Source: a virus
Length of the DNA stretch: 44,674 nucleotides
Virus record (IMG/VR): IMGVR_UViG_3300017788_000045
Coordinates: 1-44,674 of that record
Reading direction: 5' to 3' (one strand)
The stretch's first letter is position 1. The number at the start of each line of letters is the position of its first letter. The notes beneath the pieces were generated by a model, which was given only the letters and a program-made list of their open reading frames with translations, was not told the origin of the DNA and did no database searches. Of this stretch, positions 7,536-44,674 are shown piece after piece. The position numbers and the translations under genes were made by a program.

Positions 7536-7543
7536 TATTTATT
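7536..7543 (-). promoter_or_regulatory. Late promoter AATAAATA, 5 nt before ATG
   Basis: On the minus strand the sequence reads AATAAATA-TCAAC-ATG, driving the four-oxygenase operon. It is back to back with the plus-strand promoter at 7563-7570. Confidence 0.7.
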
Positions 7544-7562
7544 TGTTGGCCTTGCGGCCTAG

Positions 7563-7570
7563 GTTAAATA
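7563..7570 (+). promoter_or_regulatory. Late promoter GTTAAATA, 5 nt before ATG
   Basis: The plus strand reads GTTAAATA-AAGGC-ATG, with the ATG at 7576. The AAGG is too close to the ATG to act as a normal ribosome site. This placement is a main reason for preferring 7576 over the TTG at 7543, which would put the promoter inside the gene. Confidence 0.7.
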
Positions 7571-7575
7571 AAGGC

Positions 7576-8361
7576 ATGCCTTTACTTGCTGACTTTCCTG
7601 TAATTTTTGTACATTATCCAACCGGAGCAGGCGGATGGTTTTTTTCCAGCTTATTATACAATTGTTTTGATACCTCAGATCCTCTGCTATTCGATCAAGT
7701 GGGGTCTGGACATGCCAATAGGTCCATATCTTATACCACTAATTTTTATAAAGATTTCCTCCAAGAAGATCGAGGACTTGATATAATCTATGACAGAAAT
7801 TATGAAAATTTTACCAAATCACAGAGAGTAGATTATATAAGAAATAAACTGTTAGTGGCTCCCGATGCCGATATCAGCACACATGTGATTTCAATACATT
7901 GCAAGAATATTAACGTTTTTTTAGAAGCACTACCTTTGCTGAAAGTCGTCCAGATCAATATAACAGACGGCGATCTTCTAAGATGCACATATAATTATTT
8001 GTATAAAGTTTTATCTCAGACTCCGCTAAACTTTCATACGTTTTGTGAAGAACGTGGAATAACTGGCAGTGAACTAGAAATCGCTCGACAAAAAATACAA
8101 AACCTCAACAAAGAAAACATAGAATACTTTCGTTGGGTAATTCCTTTTATCCAAGAAACCAATCAAACGATTCCTAATGATGCAAAATTCGTTTCTAGGA
8201 TATATTCAATGATGTATGAAGATTATATGACGATAGATCCAGGAATCATGATGAAAGAAGTTTTAGATTTTGTTCAATGCGAATATGATCGAGATTTATT
8301 CGAAACAGCATGCGGCCACATTCTATCGTATAGGATGACCCAACCAATATTTCCAGAATGA
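7576..8361 (+). CDS. Sulfotransferase-like P-loop protein
   Basis: 261 residues from the ATG at 7576. The N-terminus 'PVIFVHYPTGAGGWFFSSLL' has the hydrophobic strand, Gly-rich loop and helix expected of a nucleotide/PAPS-binding loop at the start of sulfotransferase-like folds. A mid-protein strand 'HVISIHCKN' could hold the second site, but I see no clear 3'-phosphate-binding signature. It overlaps the next gene by 4 bases (ATGA) and opens the long plus-strand operon. If a true sulfotransferase, it would move sulfate from PAPS to a hydroxyl or amine; the assignment is fold-level only. Confidence 0.45.
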   Translation: MPLLADFPVIFVHYPTGAGGWFFSSLLYNCFDTSDPLLFDQVGSGHANRSISYTTNFYKDFLQEDRGLDIIYDRNYENFTKSQRVDYIRNKLLVAPDADISTHVISIHCKNINVFLEALPLLKVVQINITDGDLLRCTYNYLYKVLSQTPLNFHTFCEERGITGSELEIARQKIQNLNKENIEYFRWVIPFIQETNQTIPNDAKFVSRIYSMMYEDYMTIDPGIMMKEVLDFVQCEYDRDLFETACGHILSYRMTQPIFPE

Positions 8362-11346: not shown

Positions 11347-11354
11347 GATTATCA

Positions 11355-14476: not shown

Positions 14477-14490
14477 TCATTAAAACAGCA

Positions 14491-14498
14491 TATAAATA
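14491..14498 (+). promoter_or_regulatory. Consensus T4 late promoter TATAAATA
   Basis: A perfect T4-type late octamer in the 47-bp gap after the SGNH pair. The 25-nt leader to the ATG at 14524 carries AAAGGA, so this is the class with a ribosome-binding site. Confidence 0.8.
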
Positions 14499-14523
14499 TC
14501 TACCTGAAGGGCAAAGGAATAAT

Positions 14524-15447: not shown

Positions 15448-15456
15448 GGAAATCGC

Positions 15457-17154
15457 ATGTGGCTTTTAGGTATTAATGTAGGACACAATGGGGCTACAGC
15501 TCTGTTTCATAATGACGAATTGATTTTTTATATCGAGGAAGATAGATTATCGAGATTGAAATACGATGGAAATCCCTTTGCTGGCATGCTACTCGCCTAC
15601 GATTATACAGACAAAATAGACTATCTAATTTTATGTGCTACCAGAAATGCCTTTGGCATGGTACCATGGACCGGTGAGGATGCTTATACTTGTTTCATTA
15701 GAAAAATGCAGCCCGGCCATAATGTAGAAACGGTTAAACTAGGCGATGACCATCATTTAACTCATGCTTATACTGCTTTTTATAACAGTGGATTTAAAGA
15801 AGCGGCCGCATTGATTATCGACGGCGCAGGAAGCGGCTGTAGAGTGAGTCAAGAACTTATGCATCAGACTTGGGAAGTAGAATCTATTTGGAAGATGGCA
15901 TACCCTGCTGCACATCAGTGTATGTACAAAAACTATGGTACTAATCTAGTAGATAGTTTTTCTATACAAGAAGAGGAGTTTCCTATAGAAATTTCCGACA
16001 TGCACGGCATAACCAAAAGTTATGAAGCAGTTACGCAGTTTCTAGGTTTCCATGCTATCGAAGCAGGTAAGACTATGGGGTTAGCACCGTACGGTAAACC
16101 TAATCCGAATATCAAAATAAACGATGGTAGATTCAGCAACAGATCTTTTATCAAACCAAACTATCCTGCCGGAAGTTATATAAGATGCGATCTCGATCCG
16201 GAACTTTCTAAACTTAATGGGGATATTTCTTGGCACGACGATCCTGATCTAGTAGGAGACTTCAGAAAAGACATCGCATATGCAGTTCAAAAATCATCTG
16301 AAAAGCGAGTTTTTGATCTAATTAGTAAAACGATCGAAATAACAGGAATGAAAAAAATAGTCATGGCCGGAGGCTACGGACTGAACTGTGTGGCCAATTA
16401 TGAATATCTTAAAGAATTTCCAGATGTAGATTTTTATAACGAACCGATCGCTCACGACGGAGGAAACGTTATTGGAGCATGCCTTTATATCTATAGATTA
16501 GTTTCAGAAACATCTAATATCAGACCGCTGACCTCGTTGTATCTAGGTCCTGATAGAAGCAAAGATTATGATTCTATGGATACAGAGGGATTTGAGATAA
16601 AAGAATCAAATGCGGCAGAAGTAGCAAGGCTGATTGCAGACGGTAATATCGTATGCTTGTTCCAAGGTAGGTCTGAAGCAGGACCTCGAGCATTGGGCAA
16701 TAGAAGCATTTTGTACGATCCGTCGGTAATCAATGGCAAAGACATCGTTAATATAGTCAAGAAAAGAGAATGGTTCAGGCCGTTTGCCGGATCCTGTTTA
16801 GCAGAAAAAGCCAACGAATGGTTCGACCTACGAACTAAAAAAGAAACTCCATTTATGATGTATGCTGTCGATGTGCTGCCAGAAAAAAGAGATATCATTC
16901 CGGCGATCACTCATGTAGATGGAACCTGCAGAGTGCAAACAGTTGCAAGAGATCAAAACCCTCATTATTACGATCTCATCGATGAATTTGATAAGATCAA
17001 AGGAATCCCTATCCTGTTTAACACCAGTTTTAATCTAGCAGGTGATCCTTTGGTAGAAAAAATCAGTGAGGCAACCAATACACTCAAGAAATCAGATCTC
17101 AAGTATCTTTGGTTGCCTGAAGTAGGTAAATTACTGATTAAGAAAGAGGATTAA
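15457..17154 (+). CDS. Carbamoyltransferase, NodU/CmcH/TobZ family
   Basis: 565 residues, full family length. The ASKHA-type N-terminus 'GINVGHNGATALFHNDELIF' is followed by the metal-binding HHLTHA at 99-104, 'VMAGGYGLNCVANYEYL', 'GRSEAGPRALGNRSIL' around 405-416 and the C-terminal YrdC-like part with 'FRPFAGSCL'. Enzymes of this family carbamoylate a hydroxyl on sugars (NodU on Nod factors, TobZ on tobramycin) or other scaffolds (CmcH on cephems) from carbamoyl phosphate and ATP. AAGGAAA precedes the ATG. Its stop overlaps the stop of the convergent methyltransferase in a TTAA palindrome. NodU-type genes are known in T4-like cyanophages. Confidence 0.9.
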   Translation: MWLLGINVGHNGATALFHNDELIFYIEEDRLSRLKYDGNPFAGMLLAYDYTDKIDYLILCATRNAFGMVPWTGEDAYTCFIRKMQPGHNVETVKLGDDHHLTHAYTAFYNSGFKEAAALIIDGAGSGCRVSQELMHQTWEVESIWKMAYPAAHQCMYKNYGTNLVDSFSIQEEEFPIEISDMHGITKSYEAVTQFLGFHAIEAGKTMGLAPYGKPNPNIKINDGRFSNRSFIKPNYPAGSYIRCDLDPELSKLNGDISWHDDPDLVGDFRKDIAYAVQKSSEKRVFDLISKTIEITGMKKIVMAGGYGLNCVANYEYLKEFPDVDFYNEPIAHDGGNVIGACLYIYRLVSETSNIRPLTSLYLGPDRSKDYDSMDTEGFEIKESNAAEVARLIADGNIVCLFQGRSEAGPRALGNRSILYDPSVINGKDIVNIVKKREWFRPFAGSCLAEKANEWFDLRTKKETPFMMYAVDVLPEKRDIIPAITHVDGTCRVQTVARDQNPHYYDLIDEFDKIKGIPILFNTSFNLAGDPLVEKISEATNTLKKSDLKYLWLPEVGKLLIKKED

Positions 17155-17678: not shown

Positions 17679-17721
17679 TTTTGTTAGCTCCTTAAATTAT
17701 GGTAAAAAAATCAATCTGTAT

Positions 17722-18523: not shown

Positions 18524-18537
18524 GTATTTAATCACTT

Positions 18538-19119
18538 ATGCTACCAAATAAAATATTCATGATAGGAGCTCCGGGCAGTAGGTGGAGCGGAATCGCGCAA
18601 AATATCGAGGACAATATACCTGGTTTTAACGTCAGCGATAGAACTCAACAACGTCAATATTCACATCACGCATTTTCTGGACATCTAGGAATTTACTTCG
18701 GAACAGGATGGGAAAATGACACTAGCCTAGATCAAGAAAATCTCGATCTCGGATTTGAGAATGTCAACGGAACTAGGATATTGAAAAGCCATGAGTGGGC
18801 CTATCAATTAGACGAAATCAAACAACGCTACCCCGATGATTGGATCATGCTGGTTTATAGACCGGAAATGAGTTGTTATAGTTGGTGGCACGAAGCTGGC
18901 GGATTTACTATCAAGTATCCAGATTATCGTCCCTATTATCAAGACAGCGTAAAGATGCTTAACGAAATTATGAGGATGAATCAATCAATATTTAAATTCT
19001 CACAAAAACATAATCTCGTGTGGCAACACATATCCGCTGATTGGATCGAAGAGAATTTCGGTAAACGCATAGAGCCATCCGTGAAACTCCCAGACACGTT
19101 AGTTACTCTGTTGAAATAA
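18538..19119 (+). CDS. Sulfotransferase-like P-loop protein (GAPGSRWSG type)
   Basis: 193 residues. 'IFMIGAPGSRWSGIAQNI' is a strand-loop-helix resembling the PAPS-binding loop, and 'DWIMLVYRPEMSCYSWWHEA' could be the second motif with Arg and Ser in the 3'-phosphate position. I recall proteins with this GAPGSRWSG start from marine T4-like phages, usually unassigned. Its stop codon shares a base with the TctA start (TAATG), so it is co-translated with the transporter. Enzymatic activity is inference. Confidence 0.5.
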   Translation: MLPNKIFMIGAPGSRWSGIAQNIEDNIPGFNVSDRTQQRQYSHHAFSGHLGIYFGTGWENDTSLDQENLDLGFENVNGTRILKSHEWAYQLDEIKQRYPDDWIMLVYRPEMSCYSWWHEAGGFTIKYPDYRPYYQDSVKMLNEIMRMNQSIFKFSQKHNLVWQHISADWIEENFGKRIEPSVKLPDTLVTLLK

Positions 19120-20555
19120 TGGAATATATAATCTGGTTAATGTTAGGAACTGTATATGGTACTATAGTGGGAGTCATTCCTGTCGCAGGAGCCACGATCG
19201 GCCTATTGGCTGTTTTTGGAATGATCGATAGCTTTCTAGGAAATCCCTATCTGGGTGTTGTTTTCATGACTGCTTTTCTTGGAGCGGTTAGCAGCAGCGA
19301 TAGCTTCACCAGCATACTAACTGGAATACCGGGTTCAGGAAGCACCGCGGCATCGATTATTGACGGATACCCAATGGCAAGGAACGGTCAGGGTGCCAGG
19401 GCCGTAGGTATCGCATTGATGGATTCTACTGTTAATGGTTTGTTTTGGGGGTTGTTAGCATTTGGCCTCATGCCATTTTACAGCAAATTAATTCTATTTT
19501 TTGGTATACCAGAATTTGCAGCTTTAATGTTATTAAGTCTTGCATGTGTAGGATTTATCACTGTTAAAAATCCCATGTTGAGCATCGCAAGTGTAGCTTT
19601 GGGTTTATTTCTCGGAATGATAGGTCAGGATCCCGGAACCGGCGCATATAGATTTACTTTTGGTTGGGATTATCTCGCTGCCGGTATACAAATCGTTCCG
19701 ATCATTGCAGGCCTGTTTGCTGTTCCAGAGATCATAGACTGCCTACGGGGAAAAATGAAAAAACCACCCCCTATGGTCGACTATTGGTCACAGTTAAAAC
19801 AAGGCTTTAGCGATTGCTGGCAACATCGACGTGATATGATGAGAGGCGGTGTGATAGGATTTTTTACAGGGATACTTCCCGGTATAGGCGGTAGTGCAGG
19901 GGATATGATGGCCTACGGTGCCACTGTGGCAAAGCACCCAAAAGAACAGTTTGGTAACGGAAATGTAAAAGGCCTTATTGGCTGCGAAGGGGCCAACAAT
20001 GCACAAAAGCCTGCAAGTTTAATTCCGACAATATTGTTTGGAATTCCTGGAGCACCATTCGCTGCGATAATGATGGCGGTATGTATAATGTTAGGGCTTG
20101 AATTAGGAACTCCGTCTCTGCTAGAAGATCAAAAATTTATGTGGGCTATTGCTGGTGGTTTTTTAATCAGTACTGTAATAAGTTTTATAATTTGTATATT
20201 CATTGCCCGATGGATAGTAAAGATTTTAGAAATTCCCACATGGATCTATGCGGCTGTAATTTCAACTGTGGTCGTTTGGAGCAGTTTTCAATATTCCGGA
20301 ACTATCAATGATTTATATATTTTGGTTGTTTGTGGAATTATTGGTTTTTTTGCCAAACAAATCGGATTAAGCAGACCGGCGATTTTATTAGCTTATGTGG
20401 TTGCAGAAAAATTTGAAAACTATACACAACAAAGTTTTACTCTATATACCTGGAGTGAAATCTTATCGAGGCCGCTGACACTGGCCTTGTTGATTGTTTC
20501 TATATTAATAGTGATCAACAGCGTAAGAAAATTTAATGGTATAAACTTTAATTAG
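19119..20555 (+). CDS. tctA: TctA-family permease, tripartite tricarboxylate transporter
   Basis: 478 residues, close to the usual length of about 500 for TctA. The protein is almost wholly hydrophobic, with roughly ten to twelve membrane spans. Hallmarks: 'GTVYGTIVGVIPVAGATIG' near the N-terminus, 'SILTGIPGSGSTAASIIDGY', the internal repeat 'GVIGFFTGILPGIGGSAGDM' near 245-264, and 'PTILFGIPGAPFAAIMM'. TctA is the large inner-membrane subunit that moves carboxylates such as citrate, driven by ion gradients, with TctB and the periplasmic binder TctC. A TctC-like gene follows after 8 bases; no TctB is present. It looks intact, not decayed. Substrate cannot be read from sequence. Confidence 0.9.
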   Translation: MEYIIWLMLGTVYGTIVGVIPVAGATIGLLAVFGMIDSFLGNPYLGVVFMTAFLGAVSSSDSFTSILTGIPGSGSTAASIIDGYPMARNGQGARAVGIALMDSTVNGLFWGLLAFGLMPFYSKLILFFGIPEFAALMLLSLACVGFITVKNPMLSIASVALGLFLGMIGQDPGTGAYRFTFGWDYLAAGIQIVPIIAGLFAVPEIIDCLRGKMKKPPPMVDYWSQLKQGFSDCWQHRRDMMRGGVIGFFTGILPGIGGSAGDMMAYGATVAKHPKEQFGNGNVKGLIGCEGANNAQKPASLIPTILFGIPGAPFAAIMMAVCIMLGLELGTPSLLEDQKFMWAIAGGFLISTVISFIICIFIARWIVKILEIPTWIYAAVISTVVVWSSFQYSGTINDLYILVVCGIIGFFAKQIGLSRPAILLAYVVAEKFENYTQQSFTLYTWSEILSRPLTLALLIVSILIVINSVRKFNGINFN

Positions 20556-20563
20556 GAGATGTC

Positions 20564-21619
20564 ATGAAAAAAATATTAATAGCATTTTTGCTATCTTTAA
20601 ATTTACCAGCACTTGCTGAATTTAGAATGATAGTACCACAAGCAGCGGGCAACGGAACTGCTGTTTGGGCAGATATCATAGCCAGACATTTAGAAAAACA
20701 GTTAGGCGAAAAAATAGTTATACAACATATTCCGGGAGCCAAAGATATCTCCGGTTTCAATGAATTTCATAACAAATTAAGATTTGATGAAAAGACAATC
20801 ATGGTCAGTCATGGCGGCAACGGGATAGGCTATCTGGTGGATCGCGTTGATTATGATTATAAACACTATGATTCCATCGGAATGATGAATCTCAATATCG
20901 TGGTCGGCAAAAAGAAAGGCGCAGAAATGCAAGGACAGAAAGCCAGGATAGCAGGTAGCAGCGGACAAGAAACAGACGGAATGGCTATTGCGCTATTACT
21001 CTGCGGCAATTTACCGACTATGCAGACCTATTTAGATTGTTGGAATCAAAATGCTATTTGGGTGAACGGAGTTAAAGGCAGCGAACGAAGACTGGGGTTT
21101 ATGAGAGGCGAATTTAACGTTGCTCGCGAATCGGTCGTAGCATGGTTTAAACACTACACAAGCCCAGAAAGCAATGCAGAAATTTGGTTCCATCACGGCG
21201 TCTATGATCTTAATACCAGGCGGCAAAATGAAGATCCTAATTTTCCTCGAGGATACCGATTTGAAACACAGTTTAAAAACGTGCATGGAGTAGATCCAAA
21301 AGGTCCCCTATACGATGCCTATACATTAAGTAGGAATTTCAGAGATGTTCTACAAAAGGCACTATGGGTTAACAAAGGCAATCCTAACACAGAAAGACTT
21401 CGAGCCGCTCTAACTAAAATGATCACGGATCCCGAAGCAGCCGCTGCACTGGAAAAAGACACCGGCAAATATGAATGGATTATAGGCGATGCTGGAAACC
21501 AAGTAGTTGATCGTATACGCCGTAATATAACCGAACAAAAACTTAAAGACATGGTTTGGTGGCACGAAAACGCCTATAAATTCCCCAGCGTATACAAGCC
21601 GGAGTTGATAATCAAGTAA
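20564..21619 (+). CDS. tctC: TctC/Bug-family periplasmic solute-binding protein
   Basis: 351 residues. A signal peptide 'MKKILIAFLLSLNLPALA' precedes a predicted cleavage after ALA at residue 18, so the product should be exported to the periplasm. The mature start 'FRMIVPQAAGNGTAVWADII' followed by 'LGEKIVIQHIPGA' follows the TctC/Bug pattern (P-x-A-x-G-x-x-D, then VVxNxPGA). The usual Asp after the Gly-rich loop is replaced, so ligand preference may differ. AGGAG precedes the ATG. Pairing with TctA supports function as a binding-protein-dependent carboxylate importer placed in the host envelope during infection. Confidence 0.8.
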   Translation: MKKILIAFLLSLNLPALAEFRMIVPQAAGNGTAVWADIIARHLEKQLGEKIVIQHIPGAKDISGFNEFHNKLRFDEKTIMVSHGGNGIGYLVDRVDYDYKHYDSIGMMNLNIVVGKKKGAEMQGQKARIAGSSGQETDGMAIALLLCGNLPTMQTYLDCWNQNAIWVNGVKGSERRLGFMRGEFNVARESVVAWFKHYTSPESNAEIWFHHGVYDLNTRRQNEDPNFPRGYRFETQFKNVHGVDPKGPLYDAYTLSRNFRDVLQKALWVNKGNPNTERLRAALTKMITDPEAAAALEKDTGKYEWIIGDAGNQVVDRIRRNITEQKLKDMVWWHENAYKFPSVYKPELIIK

Positions 21620-21641
21620 TCGATCGCAAATAAGTATATGC

Positions 21642-22250
21642 ATGATCATCGATTATAACAAAGGAATACACCCAGATAGCGGCAAAACTTACACAGTCCA
21701 TAAAGATCTCATCACTGTACCTTTTTGGACGGAAGAATTTTGCCGCGGTCTGATCGATTTAGCAGAATTTCACGATCATAGATTCCACTCTCATGAACAA
21801 AAAGATGAGGATTTAGGCTATAACGCTCTGTATTTCTCTCACATTAGCCAATATCTATTCGAAGATTATGTCCAGCACTACGTTCGAGATCTAATTCCCG
21901 TAATCAAAGAAGTTTGGCCCTACGCGAGAATTCCGGGATGGCAAAGTCCGTTTATATTAAAGTACCATAAGAACGGAAAGCGGCATCTAAATCCACATCA
22001 TGATTTAAGTGCGATTAGCTGGAATATCAAATTAAACGATGGGTATCAGGGAGCTTGTTTAGAATTCCCTAGGCAAGAATTCAACAATAAAGAAACTCCC
22101 GTAGGGCATCTGCTCATGTGGCCGTCGACTATCACGCATTATCATCAGGTACCCCCTATAGAGCAGGGAACAAAATATTCAGTCACTGGCTGGACATGGC
22201 CATCGGGGGCAGCCGAATGGCACGGAATTAAAAATATTTTTACGGATTAA
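21642..22250 (+). CDS. 2OG-Fe(II) oxygenase, procollagen-lysyl/prolyl-hydroxylase-like
   Basis: 202 residues. 'NPHHDLSAISWNIKLNDGYQ' gives H119 and D121, then 'GACLEFPRQ', 'GHLLMWPSTITHYHQVPPI' with H168 and K178 in 'GTKYSVTGWTW'. This is the lysyl/prolyl-hydroxylase-type layout with Lys as probable 2OG ligand. It lies 22 bases after the TctC gene, in the same apparent operon as the transporter. Substrate unknown. Confidence 0.8.
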   Translation: MIIDYNKGIHPDSGKTYTVHKDLITVPFWTEEFCRGLIDLAEFHDHRFHSHEQKDEDLGYNALYFSHISQYLFEDYVQHYVRDLIPVIKEVWPYARIPGWQSPFILKYHKNGKRHLNPHHDLSAISWNIKLNDGYQGACLEFPRQEFNNKETPVGHLLMWPSTITHYHQVPPIEQGTKYSVTGWTWPSGAAEWHGIKNIFTD

Positions 22251-22253
22251 AAA

Positions 22254-22904
22254 ATGTACAATCATATATTTCCTATCACATATATCCAGGCCAACATATC
22301 TTTAGAATTAGATATGGCTGAAATTGAAAACATATTAAAAGATTTAGAAAAAGATTACAAAGATCCAAGATTAATTGAAAATAAAGCTGGAAACAAAATG
22401 ACTTTTGATAAGCTGTTGTTGACCGACAGATATAAAAACAGTCAACTAACAAAAATCATAACGAAATATCTAAACCAATACAGATATGATATACTGGGCG
22501 TCGAAGATAATGATCTTGAAATAACCGAAAGCTGGGTAAATTTTTGTCAACCGGGCGCCGGACATCATATGCATAATCATTTTAATTCTGTGTTAAGCGG
22601 AACATTTTATTTAGACATAGAAGAAGAGCGCGGTGGAGAAGTTGTTATCGTAGATAACAGGTCCAAGGGAACGATTCATCACCGAGGAATTCCAAATTAT
22701 CATAACGTTACAGAAATTTTTGTTTCTCCTAAAAAATTTGATCTTTTAATTTTTCCTTCATATATGTATCATTGGGTTACTCCTAACCTGGGAGAAAAAA
22801 ATAGGAAAAGTCTAGCCTTTAATAGTTTTTATAATAAACCTATCAGTTCGGATCCCATAGGTTATAGCTGCACTGGGTTAAATTTTACTTTGAACCAGCC
22901 ATGA
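22254..22904 (+). CDS. 2OG-Fe(II) oxygenase-like protein
   Basis: 216 residues, TIGR02466-like. 'SWVNFCQPGAGHHMHNHFNS' holds H107 and H109, then 'LSGTFYLDI', 'FDLLIFPSYMYHWVTPN' with H173, and R184 in 'KNRKSLAFNSF'. It begins 3 bases after the preceding stop and overlaps the luciferase-like gene by 4 bases (ATGA). The run of His before the HxH is a local peculiarity. Confidence 0.8.
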   Translation: MYNHIFPITYIQANISLELDMAEIENILKDLEKDYKDPRLIENKAGNKMTFDKLLLTDRYKNSQLTKIITKYLNQYRYDILGVEDNDLEITESWVNFCQPGAGHHMHNHFNSVLSGTFYLDIEEERGGEVVIVDNRSKGTIHHRGIPNYHNVTEIFVSPKKFDLLIFPSYMYHWVTPNLGEKNRKSLAFNSFYNKPISSDPIGYSCTGLNFTLNQP

Positions 22905-25140: not shown

Positions 25141-25148
25141 GATAAATA
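25141..25148 (+). promoter_or_regulatory. Late promoter GATAAATA
   Basis: Octamer 23 nt upstream of the ATG at 25172; the leader has only a weak purine run (GAAGAAA). Drives the fibre-like gene. Confidence 0.65.
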
Positions 25149-27934: not shown

Positions 27935-29427
27935 GCTTCGAGATCAAATCTCCAGTATCCTGGTGCATATTCGCCTTCGAATGCCTTGAGCCACTGTCCG
28001 TCTGTCCATCTGTACTTTATCAAGGTTCGAAGATTCTGTATAATAGTATTCCCTGATGCGGCAGACGGATTAAATATCACTTTCCACGATGCCCCATCCC
28101 ACTCTATAATACTATTAGCAGGTATAAATGGATCTGTACCGTTTAGATTCTTCCAGGCGTCTGGACCATCATACGGATCCCGGCTGCTACCGTCCGCAGG
28201 ATCTTGCCCATATTTTATTAAACCGCCACGATTAATACTAGGATTAACGTCATCTAACATTAGATATCTAACTCCTAGCGTTCTTCCATCGGGTCTAGAT
28301 AACGGGTTGAACTTATAAGGATCTACGATAGCATCAACGGTACCTTTGCTAGGCATCCCAGTAATCGAACTGGCTATCAGTGTATTTTGTGGTATAGTGT
28401 CTTGATCGAAACTTGCTACTATTATTGTAGGATCAACTGGGTTAACTGCAAACGTACCTGACATTTCATTTCCGGATGATTGTGTAAAGATAATTCTACT
28501 AGTTGCAGTATAACCTCCCAACAGTTCTAATATCTGATACCAATTTAATTTTCCGCCCACTTTGATATCTTTTTCTGGAATCTTCATCGCCTTTATAGTG
28601 GCCGGTGGATCGATTATAGACACATCGTAGTCATTAGACTGGCCGTTTTGACTTTTAAATAGCAGCACTCTAAATTTTTCAGAACCCCATACTGCTGTAC
28701 CGACCTGCTGATTAAAAATCAAACTATCGAGATCTACTATATTTCCTTCTTCAGAAAAAATGTTAGCTACTATGGATTTTACGATTCCTAATTTTTTAAC
28801 TTTAGCAGGAGGACTGATGTATATGGGGATTTCAAAATCCATGCTAAGGATGTCAATCTCTGATTCGGTCCCCACGGGAATAGATCTATTTGTAAAACCT
28901 ATTTGTTTTAGATCTACTACGGTTAAACTAGTCCAATCTAGGTAATTATCTGTGGTCTGTATTTCTAGGCTAGGATGGAACAACACTGCTATCTGTTCAA
29001 AAAATTGCAATTTCTGATCTACATTCGAAGTCCATATATCAGCTTTCATGGTCATTTTATATGGAGTAGGTAACAATCTTTCTACAGTATAGCTGCCTCC
29101 CTGATAGTTTTGATATTCAACTTCGCCGGTTTCTTCGTCTTGAGTGTAAGCTCGTTGTCTTACATTCACTTTGCTAACGAAGCTCGGATCAGATATTCGA
29201 CTCGTATCTAATTCTAATCCTGTAATATAGCAGGCGATACGAGGCACCGATGGCAATTTGTTTTCTGAGTTTTCTCTTATGAGAGTAGCTACTTGTCTGC
29301 TCATATCCCCATAAGTTACTGGTGCGGTTTTTAATTCTCCGTCGCCGGCCTGATATTTGAATCCTATGAAAATACGCATAAATTGAGTTACATATCTTCG
29401 TATTTGACCGTCGTAAAAATGTTCCAT
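27931..29427 (-). CDS. 15: Tail sheath stabilizer/completion protein, gp15-like
   Basis: 498 residues, against 272 in T4 gp15. The N-terminus 'EHFYDGQIRRYVTQFMRIFI' then 'APVTYGDMSRQV' parallels T4 gp15 (FYN-x-x-FRRY, then VPITY). 'LPSVPRIACYITGLELD' and 'LPTPYKMTMKADIWTSNVDQ' followed by 'FFEQIAVLFHP' match the later conserved blocks. gp15 caps the tail tube and sheath and joins the tail to the neck. The extra C-terminal 230 or so residues, beyond 'FEIPIYISPPAKVKKLG', are not in T4 and end in a WRFDLEA tail. The start overlaps the gp14 stop (TAATG). Confidence 0.7.
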   Translation of the reverse strand: MEHFYDGQIRRYVTQFMRIFIGFKYQAGDGELKTAPVTYGDMSRQVATLIRENSENKLPSVPRIACYITGLELDTSRISDPSFVSKVNVRQRAYTQDEETGEVEYQNYQGGSYTVERLLPTPYKMTMKADIWTSNVDQKLQFFEQIAVLFHPSLEIQTTDNYLDWTSLTVVDLKQIGFTNRSIPVGTESEIDILSMDFEIPIYISPPAKVKKLGIVKSIVANIFSEEGNIVDLDSLIFNQQVGTAVWGSEKFRVLLFKSQNGQSNDYDVSIIDPPATIKAMKIPEKDIKVGGKLNWYQILELLGGYTATSRIIFTQSSGNEMSGTFAVNPVDPTIIVASFDQDTIPQNTLIASSITGMPSKGTVDAIVDPYKFNPLSRPDGRTLGVRYLMLDDVNPSINRGGLIKYGQDPADGSSRDPYDGPDAWKNLNGTDPFIPANSIIEWDGASWKVIFNPSAASGNTIIQNLRTLIKYRWTDGQWLKAFEGEYAPGYWRFDLEA

Positions 29428-30806
29428 TATTCGTCTGCCTCTGGTCTAAGAGCCTTGCTTAGACTCTGTCTTTCTTTGATGACCTTTCCGTTAATTATAC
29501 CTGTGTTATTATTGTTGATAAACGTAGATTTTTGGTTCTGTCTGACGTCTTTGCCCTCAAACGGTGCTACCGCTCCAACATCACTAGAACCGAGATTGCT
29601 CATAGTCATTCTTAAATTGTCTTCTAATTTTACCCATCTATTTCCGTTATATCGAAAAAGACGATTGGGATGATAATCTGTCCGAAGAGCATATTGTCCC
29701 TTGATGGGATTGATCGGGAACGCGATACCGCTGCTGAATGCTGCACCATTTGGTGGAATACCGTCTCCTACTAGATAACCTTCATACCCGTTTTTTTCGG
29801 CCGACTGAAATTGGCTGCTGGCCGAAACCGACATGTATATTTCGTTTCCTTGGTCGTCGAGAAGAGGATTTCCATTCGCATCAGTGCTGGGAATAATAGT
29901 ATCTGCGGCACTGGCCAAAGATAGTTCGATATTTCCACTTTCGTCTTTTTGTATAGTATAAAATTTAGTAGTGTCATAACCGCTTTTTGGAACGTCTGCC
30001 TCGGCTTGGTCCAATACTGCTTTGGTGATCTGCATTTCTCTATTGTAAGTAGAAATGATATCTCTAAGGCTGTCAGCTAATTCAAAATAATCAGAGTCGG
30101 GAGGAGATATTCCAGATACTTCATCTACGATCACAGTGTAGTTTTTTCCGTCACTGCCTACTACCACATCATTTTTATAGTAGGTTAGATTTTCTTCCCA
30201 GACTCCTTTAAAGTTATCTTCGTCGGCGACCCTGTCTAAAATCTGTTTAAATTCTTGGCTATCTACTAATGGTTTGCATTTAGCTCTGTATAAATGCGGA
30301 TACCAGAGATTGCTGAATCCTTCGGCGGCCCTATTCACATCTTCTATGACATAAAATCTTTTAAGGGCGAATTGTAGATCGTTGAGAGCATGTTCATCTT
30401 TGAGATGAGGAAGTTCTATAACATCACCGCTGATTAGTTTTCTTCCTAATTTTTCTACTGTGTCGTTTATATGGAACGTGACAAAAACCGTATCATTTTG
30501 TAAAAATAAACCGAACTGACTCAGATTGAAATCAGCATCTTGAACATTATATACTCCCCTTAAAATATAAACATCAGGATCATATTTCCTGTCTCTATTT
30601 TCTAAAAAAAGAAGATCTTGTATCTGAAAAGGATCGGTGGTAGGATATTTAGGCTGGCTCGGAGAACCCTTTTCGGGGGTAAGAGTACCTAGATATTTGT
30701 GGATCAGCACATCTGTGCCCCCTACTTGGAACATTTCCCAAATAGTTTTATCTACGAATCTGTAATCGCTGGTTTTTTCTGGTCTATAGAGACTTAATCT
30801 TGGCAT
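29427..30806 (-). CDS. 14: Neck protein, gp14-like
   Basis: 459 residues, against 256 in T4. 'GGTDVLIHKYLG' near the N-terminus, 'FQIQDLLFLENRDRKYD', and 'LISGDVIELPHLKDE' followed by 'ALKRFYVIEDVNRAAEG' and 'LWYPHLYRAKCKPL' fit the gp14 pattern (IxGD-x-I-x-hP ... FEI-x-x-VE). gp14 forms the neck with gp13 and receives the gp15-capped tail. The extra length is a central and C-terminal insertion of low-complexity loops. It is co-transcribed with gp15 and diverges from gp13 across 34 bp. Assignment rests on motifs plus the gp13/gp15 neighbours. Confidence 0.65.
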   Translation of the reverse strand: MPRLSLYRPEKTSDYRFVDKTIWEMFQVGGTDVLIHKYLGTLTPEKGSPSQPKYPTTDPFQIQDLLFLENRDRKYDPDVYILRGVYNVQDADFNLSQFGLFLQNDTVFVTFHINDTVEKLGRKLISGDVIELPHLKDEHALNDLQFALKRFYVIEDVNRAAEGFSNLWYPHLYRAKCKPLVDSQEFKQILDRVADEDNFKGVWEENLTYYKNDVVVGSDGKNYTVIVDEVSGISPPDSDYFELADSLRDIISTYNREMQITKAVLDQAEADVPKSGYDTTKFYTIQKDESGNIELSLASAADTIIPSTDANGNPLLDDQGNEIYMSVSASSQFQSAEKNGYEGYLVGDGIPPNGAAFSSGIAFPINPIKGQYALRTDYHPNRLFRYNGNRWVKLEDNLRMTMSNLGSSDVGAVAPFEGKDVRQNQKSTFINNNNTGIINGKVIKERQSLSKALRPEADE

Positions 30807-30813
30807 AGTTATA

Positions 30814-30821
30814 TATTTACC
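30814..30821 (-). promoter_or_regulatory. Late promoter GGTAAATA
   Basis: On the minus strand GGTAAATA stands 7 nt before the gp14 ATG with no Shine-Dalgarno. Together with the plus-strand promoter 6 bp away it forms a compact divergent late promoter pair. Confidence 0.5.
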
Positions 30822-30827
30822 CGCTAC

Positions 30828-30835
30828 GATAAATA
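30828..30835 (+). promoter_or_regulatory. Late promoter GATAAATA, 5 nt before ATG
   Basis: Reads GATAAATA-CTGCT-ATG before gp13. The last 14 bases (TAAATACTGCTATG) are identical to those before the HNH-like gene on the other strand. Confidence 0.75.
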
Positions 30836-31981: not shown

Positions 31982-32638
31982 ATGATCATAGGTATTTGTG
32001 GATTTATAGGTTCAGGCAAAGACACTATCGCCGATTATTTGGTTAACTTTCATGAGTTTCGTAGAGAAAGTTTCGCATCCACACTAAAAGACGCAGTATC
32101 CTCGGTGTTCGGATGGGATAGGACCATGCTGGAAGGGCGTACCAAGGAAGCCCGAGAATGGCGAGAGCAGGTAGATCCATGGTGGGCGGAGAGATTGTCC
32201 ATGCCTACTCTCACACCACGATGGGTTCTGCAATATTGGGGTACTGAAGTCTGCCGCAAAGCCTTCCATGATGATATCTGGATCGCTAGCCTAGAAAATA
32301 AACTTCGTAACTCTCGAGATCACGTTGTGATTTCTGACTGCCGTTTTCCTAATGAAATACAGAGCATACGCAATGCCGGCGGAAAGATTATTTGGGTACA
32401 GCGCGGTGAATTACCCGATTGGTATCAATATGCTCTAGCCGCTAACCAGCTAGGCAGCAACATGGCGTTTAACGAGTTAAAGATGCGCAAAATACATGCT
32501 TCCGAAACTGCTTGGGTAGGTACGAATTTCGATGCTGTCGTTGACAATAACTGTCTGATCAGCCAGTTATATATGAATATGGAAGAGTTAGTTAAAAATT
32601 TTAGTAGTCAGCAACAAGATCACCTTGTCTCCATGTAA
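31982..32638 (+). CDS. 1: Deoxynucleoside monophosphate kinase, gp1-like
   Basis: 218 residues. The P-loop 'GFIGSGKDTIADYL' (residues 7-20) with 'FRRESFASTLKDAVSSVFGW', 'LTPRWVLQYWGTEVCR' and 'DHVVISDCRFPNEIQSIRNA' is the T4 gp1/dNMP-kinase pattern. The enzyme phosphorylates dNMPs for phage DNA synthesis, normally an early function. It sits among late virion genes but has its own perfect sigma-70 promoter. Its 3' end overlaps the convergent HNH-like gene by 38 bases. Confidence 0.9.
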   Translation: MIIGICGFIGSGKDTIADYLVNFHEFRRESFASTLKDAVSSVFGWDRTMLEGRTKEAREWREQVDPWWAERLSMPTLTPRWVLQYWGTEVCRKAFHDDIWIASLENKLRNSRDHVVISDCRFPNEIQSIRNAGGKIIWVQRGELPDWYQYALAANQLGSNMAFNELKMRKIHASETAWVGTNFDAVVDNNCLISQLYMNMEELVKNFSSQQQDHLVSM

Positions 32639-32936
32639 TTCCCTCTTTGCCTAATATTTGAGAGCAATTACAGCAGATAGTTTTTAGATTGCCAGGCCTG
32701 CAGTTATCTAGATTTCCGTCTAAATGAAACACTCGAAATACTTCAGGATGAGGGCTTCGATGCCCGCATTTTTCGCATCGATCTTTCTTTTTATAACCGG
32801 ATCTAGCCCAACGAGGAATACCGTGATAAAGACCGTTTGCCAAACAGATTTCACACAGGCTCCGATAATACAATTTTCCATTCTTTCTGTAATTGATCGC
32901 TCTTGGGCGTTGGCCGCATTTACATAGTGGTCTCAT
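32601..32936 (-). CDS. HNH/zinc-finger endonuclease-like protein
   Basis: 111 residues. Two zinc knuckles are visible: 'PLCKCGQRP' with 'CEICL', and 'RCEKCGHRS' with 'CCNCSQ'. Between them lies the HNH-like core 'VFHLDGNLDNCRPGNLKTIC' (H, N, N). The 'GITWRQGDLVADY' C-terminus is familiar from conserved proteins of marine T4-like phages. It could be a structure-specific nuclease or a homing-type relict; conservation favours a phage function. A late promoter stands 5 nt before its ATG and its message runs antisense to the dNMP kinase end. Confidence 0.65.
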   Translation of the reverse strand: MRPLCKCGQRPRAINYRKNGKLYYRSLCEICLANGLYHGIPRWARSGYKKKDRCEKCGHRSPHPEVFRVFHLDGNLDNCRPGNLKTICCNCSQILGKEGITWRQGDLVADY

Positions 32937-32941: not shown

Positions 32942-32949
32942 TATTTAAT
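32942..32949 (-). promoter_or_regulatory. Late promoter ATTAAATA, 5 nt before ATG
   Basis: On the minus strand ATTAAATA-CTGCT-ATG precedes the HNH-like gene. It shares the 14-base string TAAATACTGCTATG with the gp13 start. Confidence 0.65.
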
Positions 32950-33010
32950 GATTTTAAACCTTTTCTACCCCTTTAAGTGCTTGTATAACTACCCAAAATT
33001 TAGATCTGCC

Positions 33011-33018
33011 GCTAAATA
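33011..33018 (+). promoter_or_regulatory. Late promoter GCTAAATA for the sheath gene
   Basis: 31 nt before the ATG at 33050; the leader contains AGGAGA at good spacing, as expected for a very highly expressed protein. Confidence 0.75.
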
Positions 33019-33049
33019 ATACAAGCAACTATTACCAGGAGAAAAAGTA

Positions 33050-37044: not shown

Positions 37045-37061
37045 CGCTAACTGCGCTGATC

Positions 37062-37090
37062 AAAAAAGCCCGGTTTTTACCGGGTTTTTT
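37062..37090 (+). terminator. Intrinsic terminator after gp19
   Basis: GCCCGGT at 37068-37074 pairs with ACCGGG(T) at 37079-37085 around a TTTT loop, with an A6 tract before and a T6 tract after. A textbook rho-independent terminator. Confidence 0.9.
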
Positions 37091-37095
37091 GTTTA

Positions 37096-37103
37096 TATAA
37101 ATA
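37096..37103 (+). promoter_or_regulatory. Late promoter TATAAATA, 5 nt before ATG
   Basis: Perfect T4 late octamer; reads TATAAATA-ATCAT-ATG. It starts 6 bp after the terminator T-tract. Confidence 0.85.
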
Positions 37104-37108
37104 ATCAT

Positions 37109-38565: not shown

Positions 38566-38999
38566 AATTCGCTCAGGGACGTTTTGAAATGAAAAATCCC
38601 GGAAAGTACATCGGGAACAAAACACCGTTGGCTAGAAGCAGCTGGGAATTCGTGTTCATGCGTATGTTAGATGAGCATCCAGGAGTGCAAAATTGGGCCA
38701 GCGAAAGCATACAGATCCCTTATAGAGATCCATTAACGGGCAGACAGACTATCTATGTTCCGGATTTTTTCATCGTCTATAACGACAAAAACGGAAAAAA
38801 ACACGCCGAGGTAGTAGAAGTGAAACCTGCTGGTCAAACTCTAAGAGAACGGGTAGGTAAAAGTCTTTATAATCAAGAACAATATGTAAAAAATCAGGCC
38901 AAATGGGAAGCAGCCGGTGCCTGGTGCAAACAGAAAAATGTAAAATTCAGGGTGATCAACGAAGATGATATTTTTCATCAGGGAAAAAAACGCCGATAA
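38562..38999 (+). CDS. 4: Head completion protein, gp4-like (nuclease fold)
   Basis: 145 residues. 'NKTPLARSSWEFVFMRMLDE', 'ESIQIPYRDPLTGRQTIYVP', 'DFFIVYNDKNGKKHAEVVEV' and KP-x-GQT fit T4 gp4 and its TnsA/restriction-endonuclease-like fold: E28 in the first helix, then D67 and an ExK-like 'EVVEVK' at the catalytic places. gp4 acts on filled heads after packaging, before tail joining. The ATG overlaps the previous stop (ATGA). Confidence 0.85.
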   Translation: MKFAQGRFEMKNPGKYIGNKTPLARSSWEFVFMRMLDEHPGVQNWASESIQIPYRDPLTGRQTIYVPDFFIVYNDKNGKKHAEVVEVKPAGQTLRERVGKSLYNQEQYVKNQAKWEAAGAWCKQKNVKFRVINEDDIFHQGKKRR

Positions 39000-39007
39000 G
39001 TAAAATT

Positions 39008-39484
39008 ATGACTAAAAAATTAGAAGACCTTTTCAACCTTGAAAAAAAAGATTCCGGTGAATCAACTATCGCCGAGAAAAAAAATCATGAAGAAGTAGAT
39101 TCTGCAGAAGCCAGTTATAGAGCTGTCGAAGAAATCACCAAATCCTTACCAGTTATAAAAGAACTAGACACCTTAGATGAGAAAGAGTTAGATGCACTAG
39201 CATCCAAGGCAGAACAGGCCTATGATGATTTAATGGATCTAGGAATGAACGTAGAAGTGAGGTACAGCGGACGTATTTTTGAAGTGGCAGGTACTATGCT
39301 CAAAAATGCTATAGATGCTAAATCTCAAAAAATCGACAAGAAGCTAAAAGCTGTAGAATTACAGTTGAAAAAATTAAAAATAGACAAAGACAGCAACGAT
39401 GACCCCAATGATATCATCAACGGCCAGGGTTATATAATTGCAGATAGAAATGAATTAATGAAAAAACTAAGTCAAAAGAGCTAA
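39008..39484 (+). CDS. 16: Terminase small subunit, gp16-like
   Basis: 158 residues, nearly the length of T4 gp16 (164). The central part 'EASYRAVEEITKSLPVIKEL' ... 'SGRIFEVAGTMLKNAIDAKS' followed by a long basic coiled coil 'KKLKAVELQLKKLKI' follows the gp16 layout (helical hairpin with R-x-x-EV-x-x-x-x-LK). The acidic N-terminus and 'GYIIADRNELMKKL' tail fit too. The small subunit regulates gp17 and DNA recognition. It is separated from gp17 by three genes, unlike T4. The stop codon lies in the next late promoter. Confidence 0.7.
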   Translation: MTKKLEDLFNLEKKDSGESTIAEKKNHEEVDSAEASYRAVEEITKSLPVIKELDTLDEKELDALASKAEQAYDDLMDLGMNVEVRYSGRIFEVAGTMLKNAIDAKSQKIDKKLKAVELQLKKLKIDKDSNDDPNDIINGQGYIIADRNELMKKLSQKS

Positions 39485-39487
39485 ATA
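39480..39487 (+). promoter_or_regulatory. Late promoter GCTAAATA, 5 nt before ATG
   Basis: Overlaps the gp16 stop codon and reads GCTAAATA-TTACT-ATG. No Shine-Dalgarno can fit between. Confidence 0.7.
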
Positions 39488-39492
39488 TTACT

Positions 39493-40071: not shown

Positions 40072-40075
40072 CACG

Positions 40076-41283: not shown

Positions 41284-41296
41284 TATTTCAAATACC

Positions 41297-41324
41297 AAAT
41301 AGGCTCTTCGGAGCCTATTTTTTT
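41297..41324 (+). terminator. Intrinsic terminator with TTCG tetraloop
   Basis: AAATAGGCTC at 41297-41306 and GAGCCTATTT at 41311-41320 form a perfect 10-bp stem around TTCG, followed by four more T. Confidence 0.92.
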
Positions 41325-41325
41325 C

Positions 41326-41333
41326 TGTAAATA
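41326..41333 (+). promoter_or_regulatory. Late promoter TGTAAATA, 5 nt before ATG
   Basis: Reads TGTAAATA-ACTAT-ATG just after the terminator. No Shine-Dalgarno precedes the terminase gene. Confidence 0.65.
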
Positions 41334-41338
41334 ACTAT

Positions 41339-42925
41339 ATGGGAAAATCATTAGATGGAGTACTGGTTAAAAAAGCCTTCGCTCCGCAGAAATATACACT
41401 AGAAGAAGTTAAACATATAGAGGCCTGCATGGATCCGATAAACGGGCCTTTATATTTTATGAAAAATTTTTTAAAAATACAGCACCCTGTTCGAGGTGCT
41501 ATTGCCTTTGCCCCCTATGATTATCAAGAAAGGTTGATCGGTGCTTATCATGGAAACAAGCAGTGTATCGCTATGTTGCCAAGGCAAATGGGAAAAACTA
41601 CCTGTGCCACTGGTTATCTATTATGGTATACCATGTTCATACCCGAGGCGCAGATCCTGATTGCTGCGCACAAATATGAGGGTGCGCAAGACATAATGAA
41701 CCGATATCGCTACGGTTATGAGAATCTGCCCGATTTCATCCGTGCGGGTGTACACAGTTATAATCGTAATACTATAGAATACGACAACGGTGCTCGTATA
41801 CAAGCCACAACAACCACAGAAAATACCGGCCGCGGCAAATCGTTGTCATTAATTTACTGCGATGAGTTCGCGTTCGTGCAGCCGCCTGAAAAAGCCAAAG
41901 AGTTTTGGACTGCATTATCGCCCACACTGTCAACTGGTGGTAAATGTATCATCACTTCTACTCCTAACTCAGACGAAGATCAGTTCGCGGTGATATGGAC
42001 CGAAGCTAATCAAAAATTCGATGAGTACGGCAACGAACAAAATTTAGGAATCAATGGATTTTTTCCATATTTTGCACACTGGTCAGAGCACCCTGATAGA
42101 GATGAGAAATGGGCACAGATAGAACGTGCTAAAATCGGCGAAGAAAGATTTAGAAGAGAATTTGACTGCGAGTTCTTGATCTTTGATGAAACTCTCATAA
42201 ATGCGGTTAAATTGTCAGAAATGCAAGGTGTTGACCCCGTAATGTCTATGGGACAAACACGATGGTATAACGACATTAATCCACATGCTACCTATCTAGT
42301 AGCTCTTGATCCTAGTTTAGGTACAGGCGGAGATTATGGGGCGATACAGGTTTTTGAAATGCCCAGGATGATCCAAGTAGCGGAATGGCATCATAATTTA
42401 ACACCTATACAATCCCAAGTAAAACACATGAGAGAAATATTAAAATATATACAACAGACTGCAGCCGAGAAAGGTGGGAATCCTCAAATATATTACTCGG
42501 TGGAAAATAACACACTAGGAGAAGCTGCGCTGATAGTAATTCGTGATATCGGAGAAGAAAATTTTCCAGGTTTATTTTTAAGTGAGCCTATACGTAAAGG
42601 GCATGTGCGAAAATTTCGAAAAGGATTTAATACTACTCATCGGAGTAAAATCGCAGCTTGTAGCCAATTAAAAAATCTTATAGAAAATAAAAAAATGCAG
42701 ATTAGATCTAAACCTCTATTATCAGAGCTTAAAACCTACGTAGCTCACGGTGTTGGTTTTGGTGCTAAATCAGGAGAAAACGACGATCTGATCAGTGCAA
42801 CTCTGCTAATAATACGCATGGCAAATTTATTAGCTGATTGGGATCCTAAAATTTATGATACAATTACCGAAAAAATCTCAGAAGAGCAGATGCCCATGCC
42901 AATTTTTATTAGCACGAGTTTTTGA
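41339..42925 (+). CDS. 17: Terminase large subunit, gp17
   Basis: 528 residues (T4 gp17 has 610). ATPase: Walker A 'MLPRQMGKTT' at 79-88, Walker B 'LIYCDEFAFV' with D175 and E176, and motif III 'TSTPN' at 206-210. Nuclease: 'YLVALDPSLGTGGDYGAI' with the first catalytic Asp near 323, 'VENNTLGEAAL', and 'SGENDDLISATLLIIRMA' near the C-terminus. It pumps DNA into the prohead and cuts concatemers. The stop codon lies in the next late promoter. Confidence 0.95.
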   Translation: MGKSLDGVLVKKAFAPQKYTLEEVKHIEACMDPINGPLYFMKNFLKIQHPVRGAIAFAPYDYQERLIGAYHGNKQCIAMLPRQMGKTTCATGYLLWYTMFIPEAQILIAAHKYEGAQDIMNRYRYGYENLPDFIRAGVHSYNRNTIEYDNGARIQATTTTENTGRGKSLSLIYCDEFAFVQPPEKAKEFWTALSPTLSTGGKCIITSTPNSDEDQFAVIWTEANQKFDEYGNEQNLGINGFFPYFAHWSEHPDRDEKWAQIERAKIGEERFRREFDCEFLIFDETLINAVKLSEMQGVDPVMSMGQTRWYNDINPHATYLVALDPSLGTGGDYGAIQVFEMPRMIQVAEWHHNLTPIQSQVKHMREILKYIQQTAAEKGGNPQIYYSVENNTLGEAALIVIRDIGEENFPGLFLSEPIRKGHVRKFRKGFNTTHRSKIAACSQLKNLIENKKMQIRSKPLLSELKTYVAHGVGFGAKSGENDDLISATLLIIRMANLLADWDPKIYDTITEKISEEQMPMPIFISTSF

Positions 42926-42931
42926 TAAATA
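42924..42931 (+). promoter_or_regulatory. Late promoter GATAAATA, 5 nt before ATG
   Basis: Overlaps the gp17 stop and reads GATAAATA-CTATC-ATG, with the ATG at 42937. Confidence 0.75.
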
Positions 42932-42936
42932 CTATC

Positions 42937-44674
42937 ATGGACGGAAGAAATAATATCGCTAACGATCTATTCTTTAAAATAAGAAGTAGATTTTCAGGGT
43001 TGAAACTCGGTGAAGAAACAGGAGCTGTTACAATCAACCCTGAAGCAGCTAGGTTTTTCGATTTTGATTATCAAGATCGAGGAAGTTCTATAGGTCATGT
43101 TACTATTAGTCTCGCAGAGCCTAATTCCATGAAAGTTTATTTCAGCACTGGTATAACAGAATCTATGGATGGAAAGCAAAAAGATAAATGGTACGGTTTT
43201 CTAAGAGAGCTTCGCAATTTTGCCAAACGTAGATTAATGGCTTTTGACACCAGGGATATTTCTAAAGACAACCTAGACAAACGAGATTTTACATATCTCA
43301 CTGTCAGTAATCAACCAACAGCGGCAACAGATACAATATTAAAACCAGTCGGAGAATCAGTCATGAACGAAAGTCAACTATACGGAACCAAAACCGTAAG
43401 TTATCAAAACTTAATGGATACAAAATTAATTATTAAACATAATCAAGCGGTCATGGACGATTCCCAGCCAGGCGCAAGAAGTCGTAATATTTCTGCGTTA
43501 TTCGTAGAGAACCAGGACGGGGAAAGATTTAAATATCCGTTCATACATCTAGCCGGCGCTAGAGCTATGCAACGACATGTGGCTAATGGCGGTCTACCTT
43601 ATGATTCCATAGGAAAAAGCATCATAGAAATGAGCGAACAAATAGCTCAACTTAAAAGTTTCAGTAATTATGTTGTACGCAACGATTTAATGAATTCTGA
43701 CACTAATCAAATTATAGAAACGTCACAGCAAGCATTACAAAGATTAAGAGAAACTATTTTTAGGCTAGCCAAACAAGGTTATTATGAAAGTTATAAAGAA
43801 TCTTTCCAAGAACAACAACCTGTCGATGTTCCTAATAGTGTAATTGAAGATTATAAAGAAAAATTTACAGTAAGAAATTTCAAAGAAGACATCAAATCAG
43901 TATTTCCTGTATTGTACAAACTTATGCAAGAAAACAACATAGTGGATTATGATGACATAGTCGGCCTAACCACAGAAAATTTCGACGAAAATGAAGATCA
44001 AGATGAAATCAAAAAGGTCAGCGAGCTTGAAAAATTTGAAAATTGGATACAAAATTTAGGTGAGAACAGCCCGATACAGAGCGATGAAGATCAATTAGTG
44101 GCGATAGATTCATTGAATAAACTTATAGCAAACACATTTCCTGCAGGAGTAGATGGCAACAACGCCATCGAAAGTCTCAAAGGAATTATCGAAGATCCCC
44201 TGCTGTTTAAAGAAATCAAAGATGCTGCGAAATCTAATCCCCAAGAAGACGTAAGACCTATGATAAAAGCATGGGTAGATGAAAATGCCAAAGAAATCGC
44301 AACAGAATTAGACTTTGGAGACATGGAACAAGCTGTAGATGAACCTGCAGCAGAAGAGCCGGCTGCCACAGGCAAAGAAGAACCTGCCACAGACGATGCA
44401 GCCGCAGCAGGCGATGCCGCAGTAGCAGCGGCCACAGGTGGTGGTGAGCAGGTAGTCACGCAGAGTGACGACAACGAGACTAGAGGCGAAGGCCGCAGAT
44501 TGAATGTCCGAGAACTGGCAGAATTCATACAGTCATTCTACGATCGTGATTCAGGCACATTCCCCAAAGGTCCAGAAGGTGTTGTAGTGATGGTAGGCAA
44601 GAAGTTTGGCGAGCAGGCGGAACAGGTCGCTCGCAAGTTCGTAGAGCGCATGGCTCCACATCAGGAAGCAGGCG
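42937..44674 (+). CDS. Large conserved phage protein (3' partial)
   Basis: Open from the ATG at 42937 to the right edge, 579 codons without a stop. The N-terminus 'RNNIANDLFFKIRSRFSGLK' and 'GITESMDGKQKDKWYGFLRE' then 'LRNFAKRRLMAFDTRDISKD' look like a conserved protein of T4-like marine phages. The middle is helical and charged. Around residues 465-515 lies an Ala/Glu/Gly low-complexity linker (AAEEPAATGKEEPATDDAAA), then 'RRLNVRELAEFIQSFYDRDS' and 'VVMVGKKFGEQAEQVARKFV'. No catalytic motif recognised; structural or packaging-associated by position after gp17. Confidence 0.7.
   Translation, partial: MDGRNNIANDLFFKIRSRFSGLKLGEETGAVTINPEAARFFDFDYQDRGSSIGHVTISLAEPNSMKVYFSTGITESMDGKQKDKWYGFLRELRNFAKRRLMAFDTRDISKDNLDKRDFTYLTVSNQPTAATDTILKPVGESVMNESQLYGTKTVSYQNLMDTKLIIKHNQAVMDDSQPGARSRNISALFVENQDGERFKYPFIHLAGARAMQRHVANGGLPYDSIGKSIIEMSEQIAQLKSFSNYVVRNDLMNSDTNQIIETSQQALQRLRETIFRLAKQGYYESYKESFQEQQPVDVPNSVIEDYKEKFTVRNFKEDIKSVFPVLYKLMQENNIVDYDDIVGLTTENFDENEDQDEIKKVSELEKFENWIQNLGENSPIQSDEDQLVAIDSLNKLIANTFPAGVDGNNAIESLKGIIEDPLLFKEIKDAAKSNPQEDVRPMIKAWVDENAKEIATELDFGDMEQAVDEPAAEEPAATGKEEPATDDAAAAGDAAVAAATGGGEQVVTQSDDNETRGEGRRLNVRELAEFIQSFYDRDSGTFPKGPEGVVVMVGKKFGEQAEQVARKFVERMAPHQEAG

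Follow-up and report, generated by a model that had tools for sequence, protein, structure and literature searches.

Late promoters five nucleotides before start codons predict leaderless or nearly leaderless late messages in a clade of jumbo phages

We found that a subset of late genes in a clade of T4-related jumbo phages carries the late promoter element TAAATA about five nucleotides before the start codon, with no Shine-Dalgarno (SD) site between the two. The late mRNAs of these short-spacer genes are very probably leaderless, or begin with a leader of 0–3 nt, which is the best reading of the sequence evidence. We word the prediction in this way because the spacing is not equally exact everywhere (4 or 6 nt at some sites, and 5–8 nt in one subclade).

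The window analysed here is a 44.7-kb IMG/VR virus fragment, one piece of a jumbo phage genome. Its large terminase is nearest to that of PA5oct (54% identity), with Phosso at 51% and CBB-like jumbo phages at 42–44%, and its order of neck, sheath, tube and terminase genes is that of PA5oct. The label ‘marine T4-like’, given in the earlier note, is therefore too narrow. In a terminase tree, the cultured jumbo relatives fall apart from all environmental sequences, with long branches and an unsure placement. The clade is known here only from metagenomes. We scanned 38 close loci and 79 further loci with terminases 59–86% identical to that of the window; two large contigs were scanned whole, and the clade set comprised 118 IMG/VR sequences (2.0 Mb). 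The window gave no matches in Rfam and tRNA scans.

Promoter sites in the window

All eight gene starts at which TAAATA had been placed 5 nt before ATG were confirmed. On the plus strand these are 7565–7570, before ATG 7576 (a 261-aa ORF); 30830–30835, before ATG 30841 (head-tail adaptor Ad2); 37098–37103, before ATG 37109 (tail-tube-like protein); 39482–39487, which overlaps the stop codon of the preceding gene, before ATG 39493 (virion structural protein); 41328–41333, before ATG 41339 (large terminase); and 42926–42931, before ATG 42937 (a head/virion protein that continues past the window end). On the minus strand they are 7536–7541, before ATG 7530 (2OG-Fe(II) oxygenase, 6973–7530), and 32942–32947, before ATG 32936 (small Cys-rich protein, 32601–32936). 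The position of a further minus-strand element, 30814–30819, also stood; it lies 7 nt before ATG 30806 (virion structural protein, 29427–30806) and is divergent from the promoter at 30830. The spacers match those listed before, with CTGCT used twice, so that eight sites have seven different spacers, while the NTAAATA that had been called an octamer is a heptamer. Two more gene starts with the 5-nt spacing had been overlooked because their element is the variant TAAGTA: 21631–21636, before ATG 21642 (202-aa ORF), and 38997–39002, before ATG 39008 (small-terminase-like), both on the plus strand.

The window contains 11 matches to the pattern TAARTA-N5-ATG, where 1.7 would be expected, and not one shuffle out of 100 gave as many. 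Ten of the matches are at gene starts, and one (1152) involves an out-of-frame ATG within the leader of a leadered gene. TAAATA itself is rarer in the window than expected (36 vs 62.7), so the copies close to ATG do not arise from AT-richness. The weakest case is the start at 7576, for which a search for relatives of the ORF found none and which could be replaced by an alternative in-frame TTG upstream, at 7543.

Two of the promoter regions are divergent pairs. The pair at 30814–30835 has a 10-bp centre, CCCGCTACGA, of which CCGCTACG is kept in two of the large contigs (G001 and G004), and the pair at 7536–7570 has a hairpin, GGCC-TTGC-GGCC, between both -10 elements. Several other genes of the window are of note. 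A number of ORFs resembling 2OG-Fe(II)/prolyl-hydroxylases occur at 5276–7530 and 21642–22904 (one, 6973–7530, confirmed by Pfam), together with a carbamoyltransferase (15457) and, by eye, a halogenase-like ORF (11355); methyltransferase-like ORFs lie at 17151 and 17722 (by eye). At 19119–21619 the phage carries a TctA-family tripartite tricarboxylate transporter gene (PF01970, E 7e-97), followed by an ORF that by eye resembles its binding protein. The Cys-rich protein encoded at 32601–32936 is a conserved 111-aa protein (MRPLCKCGQRP) with no match in Pfam or PHROG.

Spacing and promoter geometry across the clade

The distance histogram in relatives that the earlier note had proposed shows a sharp peak at 5 nt. 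Among 1,553 TAAATA sites in the 118 sequences, 889 have an ORF ATG within 60 nt; 355 stand exactly 5 nt before it, 60 at 4 nt and 48 at 6 nt. Scrambled hexamers give nothing comparable: the best of 14 other permutations of the hexamer has 38 of 2,371 sites at 5 nt. As many loci are orthologous, these site counts are not independent, and we also counted gene families: a 5-nt spacing occurs in 25, 4 nt in 21 and 6 nt in 16, against 2–4 for any one distance in the range 9–16 nt. The claim that the spacing is fixed thus holds in part: spacing rather than sequence is conserved, but its exactness is not universal, with sites at 4 and 6 nt and a subclade (L097–L113) whose late promoters stand 5–8 nt before ATG without a sharp maximum at 5. 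An 8-nt family in that subclade (MSEELARITKLAG) was rejected as a promoter, as by eye it looks like conserved coding sequence. The short-spacer trait is a property of a clade.

The T4 late promoter consensus, TATAAATA, is numbered -13 to -6 (PMC2988020). It therefore ends 5 nt before +1, placing +1 six bases past the last A, and when this numbering is applied to the 5-nt sites, +1 falls on the A of ATG. As in T4-type late promoters, roughly one turn of the helix separates the TAAATA core of the clade from the downstream start site predicted in this way. The TA at -13/-12 of the consensus is not kept, with A at -12 in about half of the sites and a mixed -13; we do not take this as excluding a gp55 promoter, because phage Aeh1 also deviates at these positions (PMC2988020). 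A gp55-type late sigma factor (phrog_12791) is encoded in all six large clade contigs (E 1e-77 to 1e-85), the window being a fragment, and the clade sigma matches gp55 of PDB 7d7c with an E of 5e-5. A search for a gp45 homologue with T4 gp45 as the query gave nothing significant.

The bases around the predicted start site are consistent with this geometry. A pyrimidine immediately precedes the ATG at 81 of 82 non-redundant 5-nt sites, against 36 of 63 leadered genes, and does so in 22 of 25 families by majority. A pyrimidine at -1 fits an expected transcription start site and alone is no proof, because a U before AUG could also aid translation. At leadered promoters +1 has no clear purine bias, which leaves room for a start site that shifts by 1–2 nt. 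Of 76 operon-first genes, 18 have a short-spacer start, vs 10 of 225 genes that follow the preceding gene by no more than 12 nt (the gene calls are crude). This roughly fivefold excess at operon-first genes is the pattern expected of a promoter.

Such variation in the start site raises the possibility that the messages are not strictly leaderless and carry very short leaders (1–5 nt) with a near-terminal AUG. We consider this somewhat unlikely. Scatter of start sites is ordinary, the 30806 gene has its element at 7 nt, and sites at 6–8 nt are common in the L097–L113 subclade; however, the peak in the main clade is sharp (334 sites at 5 nt, against 57 at 4, 23 at 6 and 18 at 7), and the almost invariant pyrimidine before the A points to a start on that base. 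The 4-nt sites would require a shift of the start site to be read as leaderless.

Terminators next to the promoters

Further evidence for the position of the 5′ end comes from intrinsic terminators. In the window, one at 37063–37090 (plus strand) has its T-run adjoining the 37098 promoter of the tail-tube-like gene, and another at 41297–41324 (plus strand), which covaries across relatives, adjoins the 41328 promoter of the large terminase. Intrinsic terminators lie no more than 70 nt upstream of 27 of 103 short-spacer sites, 3 of 122 leadered sites and 32 of 2,000 random places. The terminase hairpin was scored in 79 of 114 loci, one of which (L001) is apparently spurious, leaving about 78 of 114. 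Among 39 distinct terminase hairpins, compensating pair exchanges occur at all six inner positions, and a conserved GC hairpin with a T-run beside the promoter identifies the element as an intrinsic terminator. Its stem ends 17–22 nt before the terminase ATG, so the message starts in that stretch or arises by readthrough; barring readthrough, the leader is very short wherever the RNA starts. With terminators right before their promoters, the terminase and tail-tube-like genes should be expressed mainly from the short-leader transcript. In PA5oct, the annotated large-terminase start (L064:38847) sits within a terminator-like hairpin, and the homologous start (MAAEDYL) lies some tens of nucleotides downstream, preceded by neither an SD nor TAAATA.

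These terminators also bear on the proposal that TAAATA at -11 acts in the RNA, as an AU-rich, non-SD ribosome site in a message begun further upstream. The motif does stand in for the SD, and a few closely packed genes, among them 39493 and 42937, have it as well. Yet a message begun upstream would meet the terminators that end just before the motif at the terminase and tail-tube-like genes; the same TAAATA is found with leaders of 16–40 nt and an SD; it is the promoter consensus of gp55, which the clade encodes; and both its preference for operon-first genes and its one-base precision, unusual in a ribosome site, argue against such a role, which we regard as very unlikely. In the 39493 family, an AGGA-like stretch often lies upstream of TAAATA (median SD energy -3.7), so readthrough messages might be translated too.

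Two classes of late gene and comparison with known systems

The leadered late promoters that the earlier note had described were confirmed, all on the plus strand: 1152–1157 (18-nt leader with GGAG, ORF 1176), 14493–14498 (25-nt leader with AAAGGA, ORF 14524), 25143–25148 (23-nt leader, ORF 25172) and 33013–33018 (TAAATA, 31-nt leader with CAGGAG, tail sheath ATG 33050). Three of the four have a clear SD, the exception being 25143. Across the clade, TAAATA–ATG distances are bimodal, at 4–6 nt without an SD or at 16–40 nt mostly with one. The window and six large contigs each have 7–22 genes at 4–6 nt, 2–7 at 7–15 nt and 6–35 at 16–40 nt, and the median SD duplex energy is +0.3 to +0.8 at 4–6 nt vs -4.6 to -6.3 at 16–40 nt. 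This split in distance and SD strength backs the earlier proposal of two translation classes of late message. Start codons at 5-nt sites are ATG in 396 cases, GTG in 6 and TTG in 2, and in their first coding bases the short-spacer genes are no less structured than leadered genes.

The classes follow gene identity. The terminase, 42937, tail-tube-like, 32936 and nucleotidyltransferase-like families are mostly short-spacer (32936 in 37 of 38 members), while the 39493 and small-terminase-like families are mixed. The tail sheath gene is leadered in 40 of 41 members (median SD energy -7.4) and the tube gene in 32 of 41; an AAGGAG-type SD precedes the major capsid gene in six of six contigs, with TAAATA just upstream only in G010. 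The split suggests that expression is tuned gene by gene, perhaps to keep low-copy proteins at a low output, and not switched in time. Although every short-spacer gene belongs to the late-promoter class, as would be expected if late ribosomes were globally altered towards leaderless messages, the late sheath, tube and capsid genes retain their SD sites, and a search of nine records for phage-encoded bS21 and IF3 found neither. On these grounds the switch in initiation late in infection that had been envisaged is not supported, and we hold it to be highly improbable.

The cultured phages examined use leaders at several of the same genes. No 4–6 nt cases were found in the 50-kb late regions of PA5oct, Phosso, Atu_ph07, CBB, Munch and S-RIM2. 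The T4 late region has a single 5-nt match, inside uvsW, and another T4 region, made up largely of early genes, adds two that are off annotated gene starts; none of these seven phages has a convincing 4–6 nt class. The region of Vibrio phage 2.275 scanned has a single 5-nt match, near an annotated gene start. Orthologues of neck Ad2 have leaders of 24–41 nt with an SD, and those of 39493 leaders of 23–32 nt, in PA5oct, Phosso, Atu_ph07 and Vibrio 2.275; orthologues of 30806 have 19–28 nt in three cultured phages, and those of 42937 have 21 nt (Phosso) and 30 nt (CBB). Leaders were therefore lost in the clade, or gained in the others. The terminase and tail-tube-like genes stand outside this comparison, since their cultured orthologues have no TAAATA leader promoter. 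The orthologues also make it scarcely credible that the real start codons lie elsewhere, as the 7576 ORF alone might suggest, because the N-termini of 39493 (MKTLKDYL) and 30806 (MPRLSLY) align with those of leadered orthologues (MKTLQDYL in Atu_ph07 and MKSFRDYY in PA5oct; MARLSLW in PA5oct).

The leaderless geometry first proposed for the window is thus backed by the 5-nt peak, the abutting terminators, the pyrimidine at -1, the orthologue comparison and gp55. A gp55-type late sigma on the host RNA polymerase would read TAARTA as a -10 element, and the RNA would begin about 6 nt past its last A, at the A of the start codon. The messages would start with pppAUG, or with at most 1–3 extra bases, and would be translated without an SD. 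They would form a fixed late set (the large terminase, small-terminase-like, neck Ad2 and tail-tube-like genes, several head/virion genes and a few non-structural genes), beside sheath, tube and major capsid genes that keep leaders or SD sites. The purpose may be low output for low-copy proteins, or insulation of each gene. Both marks of a leaderless mRNA, the lack of an SD and the AUG start, are found here, and the 5′ end is a prediction from the geometry of the promoter and the place of the terminator; we infer the exact +1 and the use of the 5′-AUG pathway. It is quite improbable, if conceivable, that the clade uses leaderless translation as a dedicated expression channel, in which the phage or host makes late ribosomes favour 5′-AUG messages (or the phage escapes an attack on SD-led messages) and packaging and neck proteins are scheduled apart from the SD-led capsid and sheath.

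The clade shares with T4 gp55 late promoters a TAAATA core without a fixed -35 element, an AT-rich downstream region, use on both strands at virion genes and an encoded gp55 homologue, but T4 and the cultured jumbo relatives examined have leaders of roughly 16–40 nt with an SD, whereas a subset of clade genes has none. The nearest cultured kin by terminase, PA5oct (Arenbergviridae), Sinorhizobium phage Phosso and Agrobacterium phage Atu_ph07, share the sheath–tubes–terminase order and the TAAATA late motif, yet their orthologues have leaders of 19–32 nt with an SD and there is no 4–6 nt class. Leaderless mRNAs elsewhere (lambda cI, mycobacteria, Caulobacter, archaea) likewise lack an SD, use AUG almost exclusively and have it at or near the 5′ end, as predicted in the clade; the clade differs in that one phage sigma would serve a fixed late virion subset beside SD-led late genes. 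The poxvirus late promoter TAAATG also overlaps or adjoins the start codon, and poxvirus late messages gain a poly(A) leader by slippage at an A-run. Such a leader was rejected here from the sequence, as the A follows a pyrimidine and no A-run is present at +1. In phiKZ-type phages, too, a late promoter element lies near the start site, but they use a phage-encoded multisubunit RNA polymerase and the motif TATG, whose G is the start site (PMC5312081). Our search of the open literature found no account of systematic, gene-specific leaderless messages in T4-type late transcription.

As the trait runs through a large clade and is absent from the cultured relatives examined, in which several of the orthologues are leadered, it offers a clean natural experiment on swapping SD leaders for 5′-AUG starts. 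The leaderless reading predicts 5′ ends to the base and provides a start-codon rule for annotating phages of the clade. It also raises the question of whether the levels of low-copy assembly proteins may be set by weak leaderless initiation.
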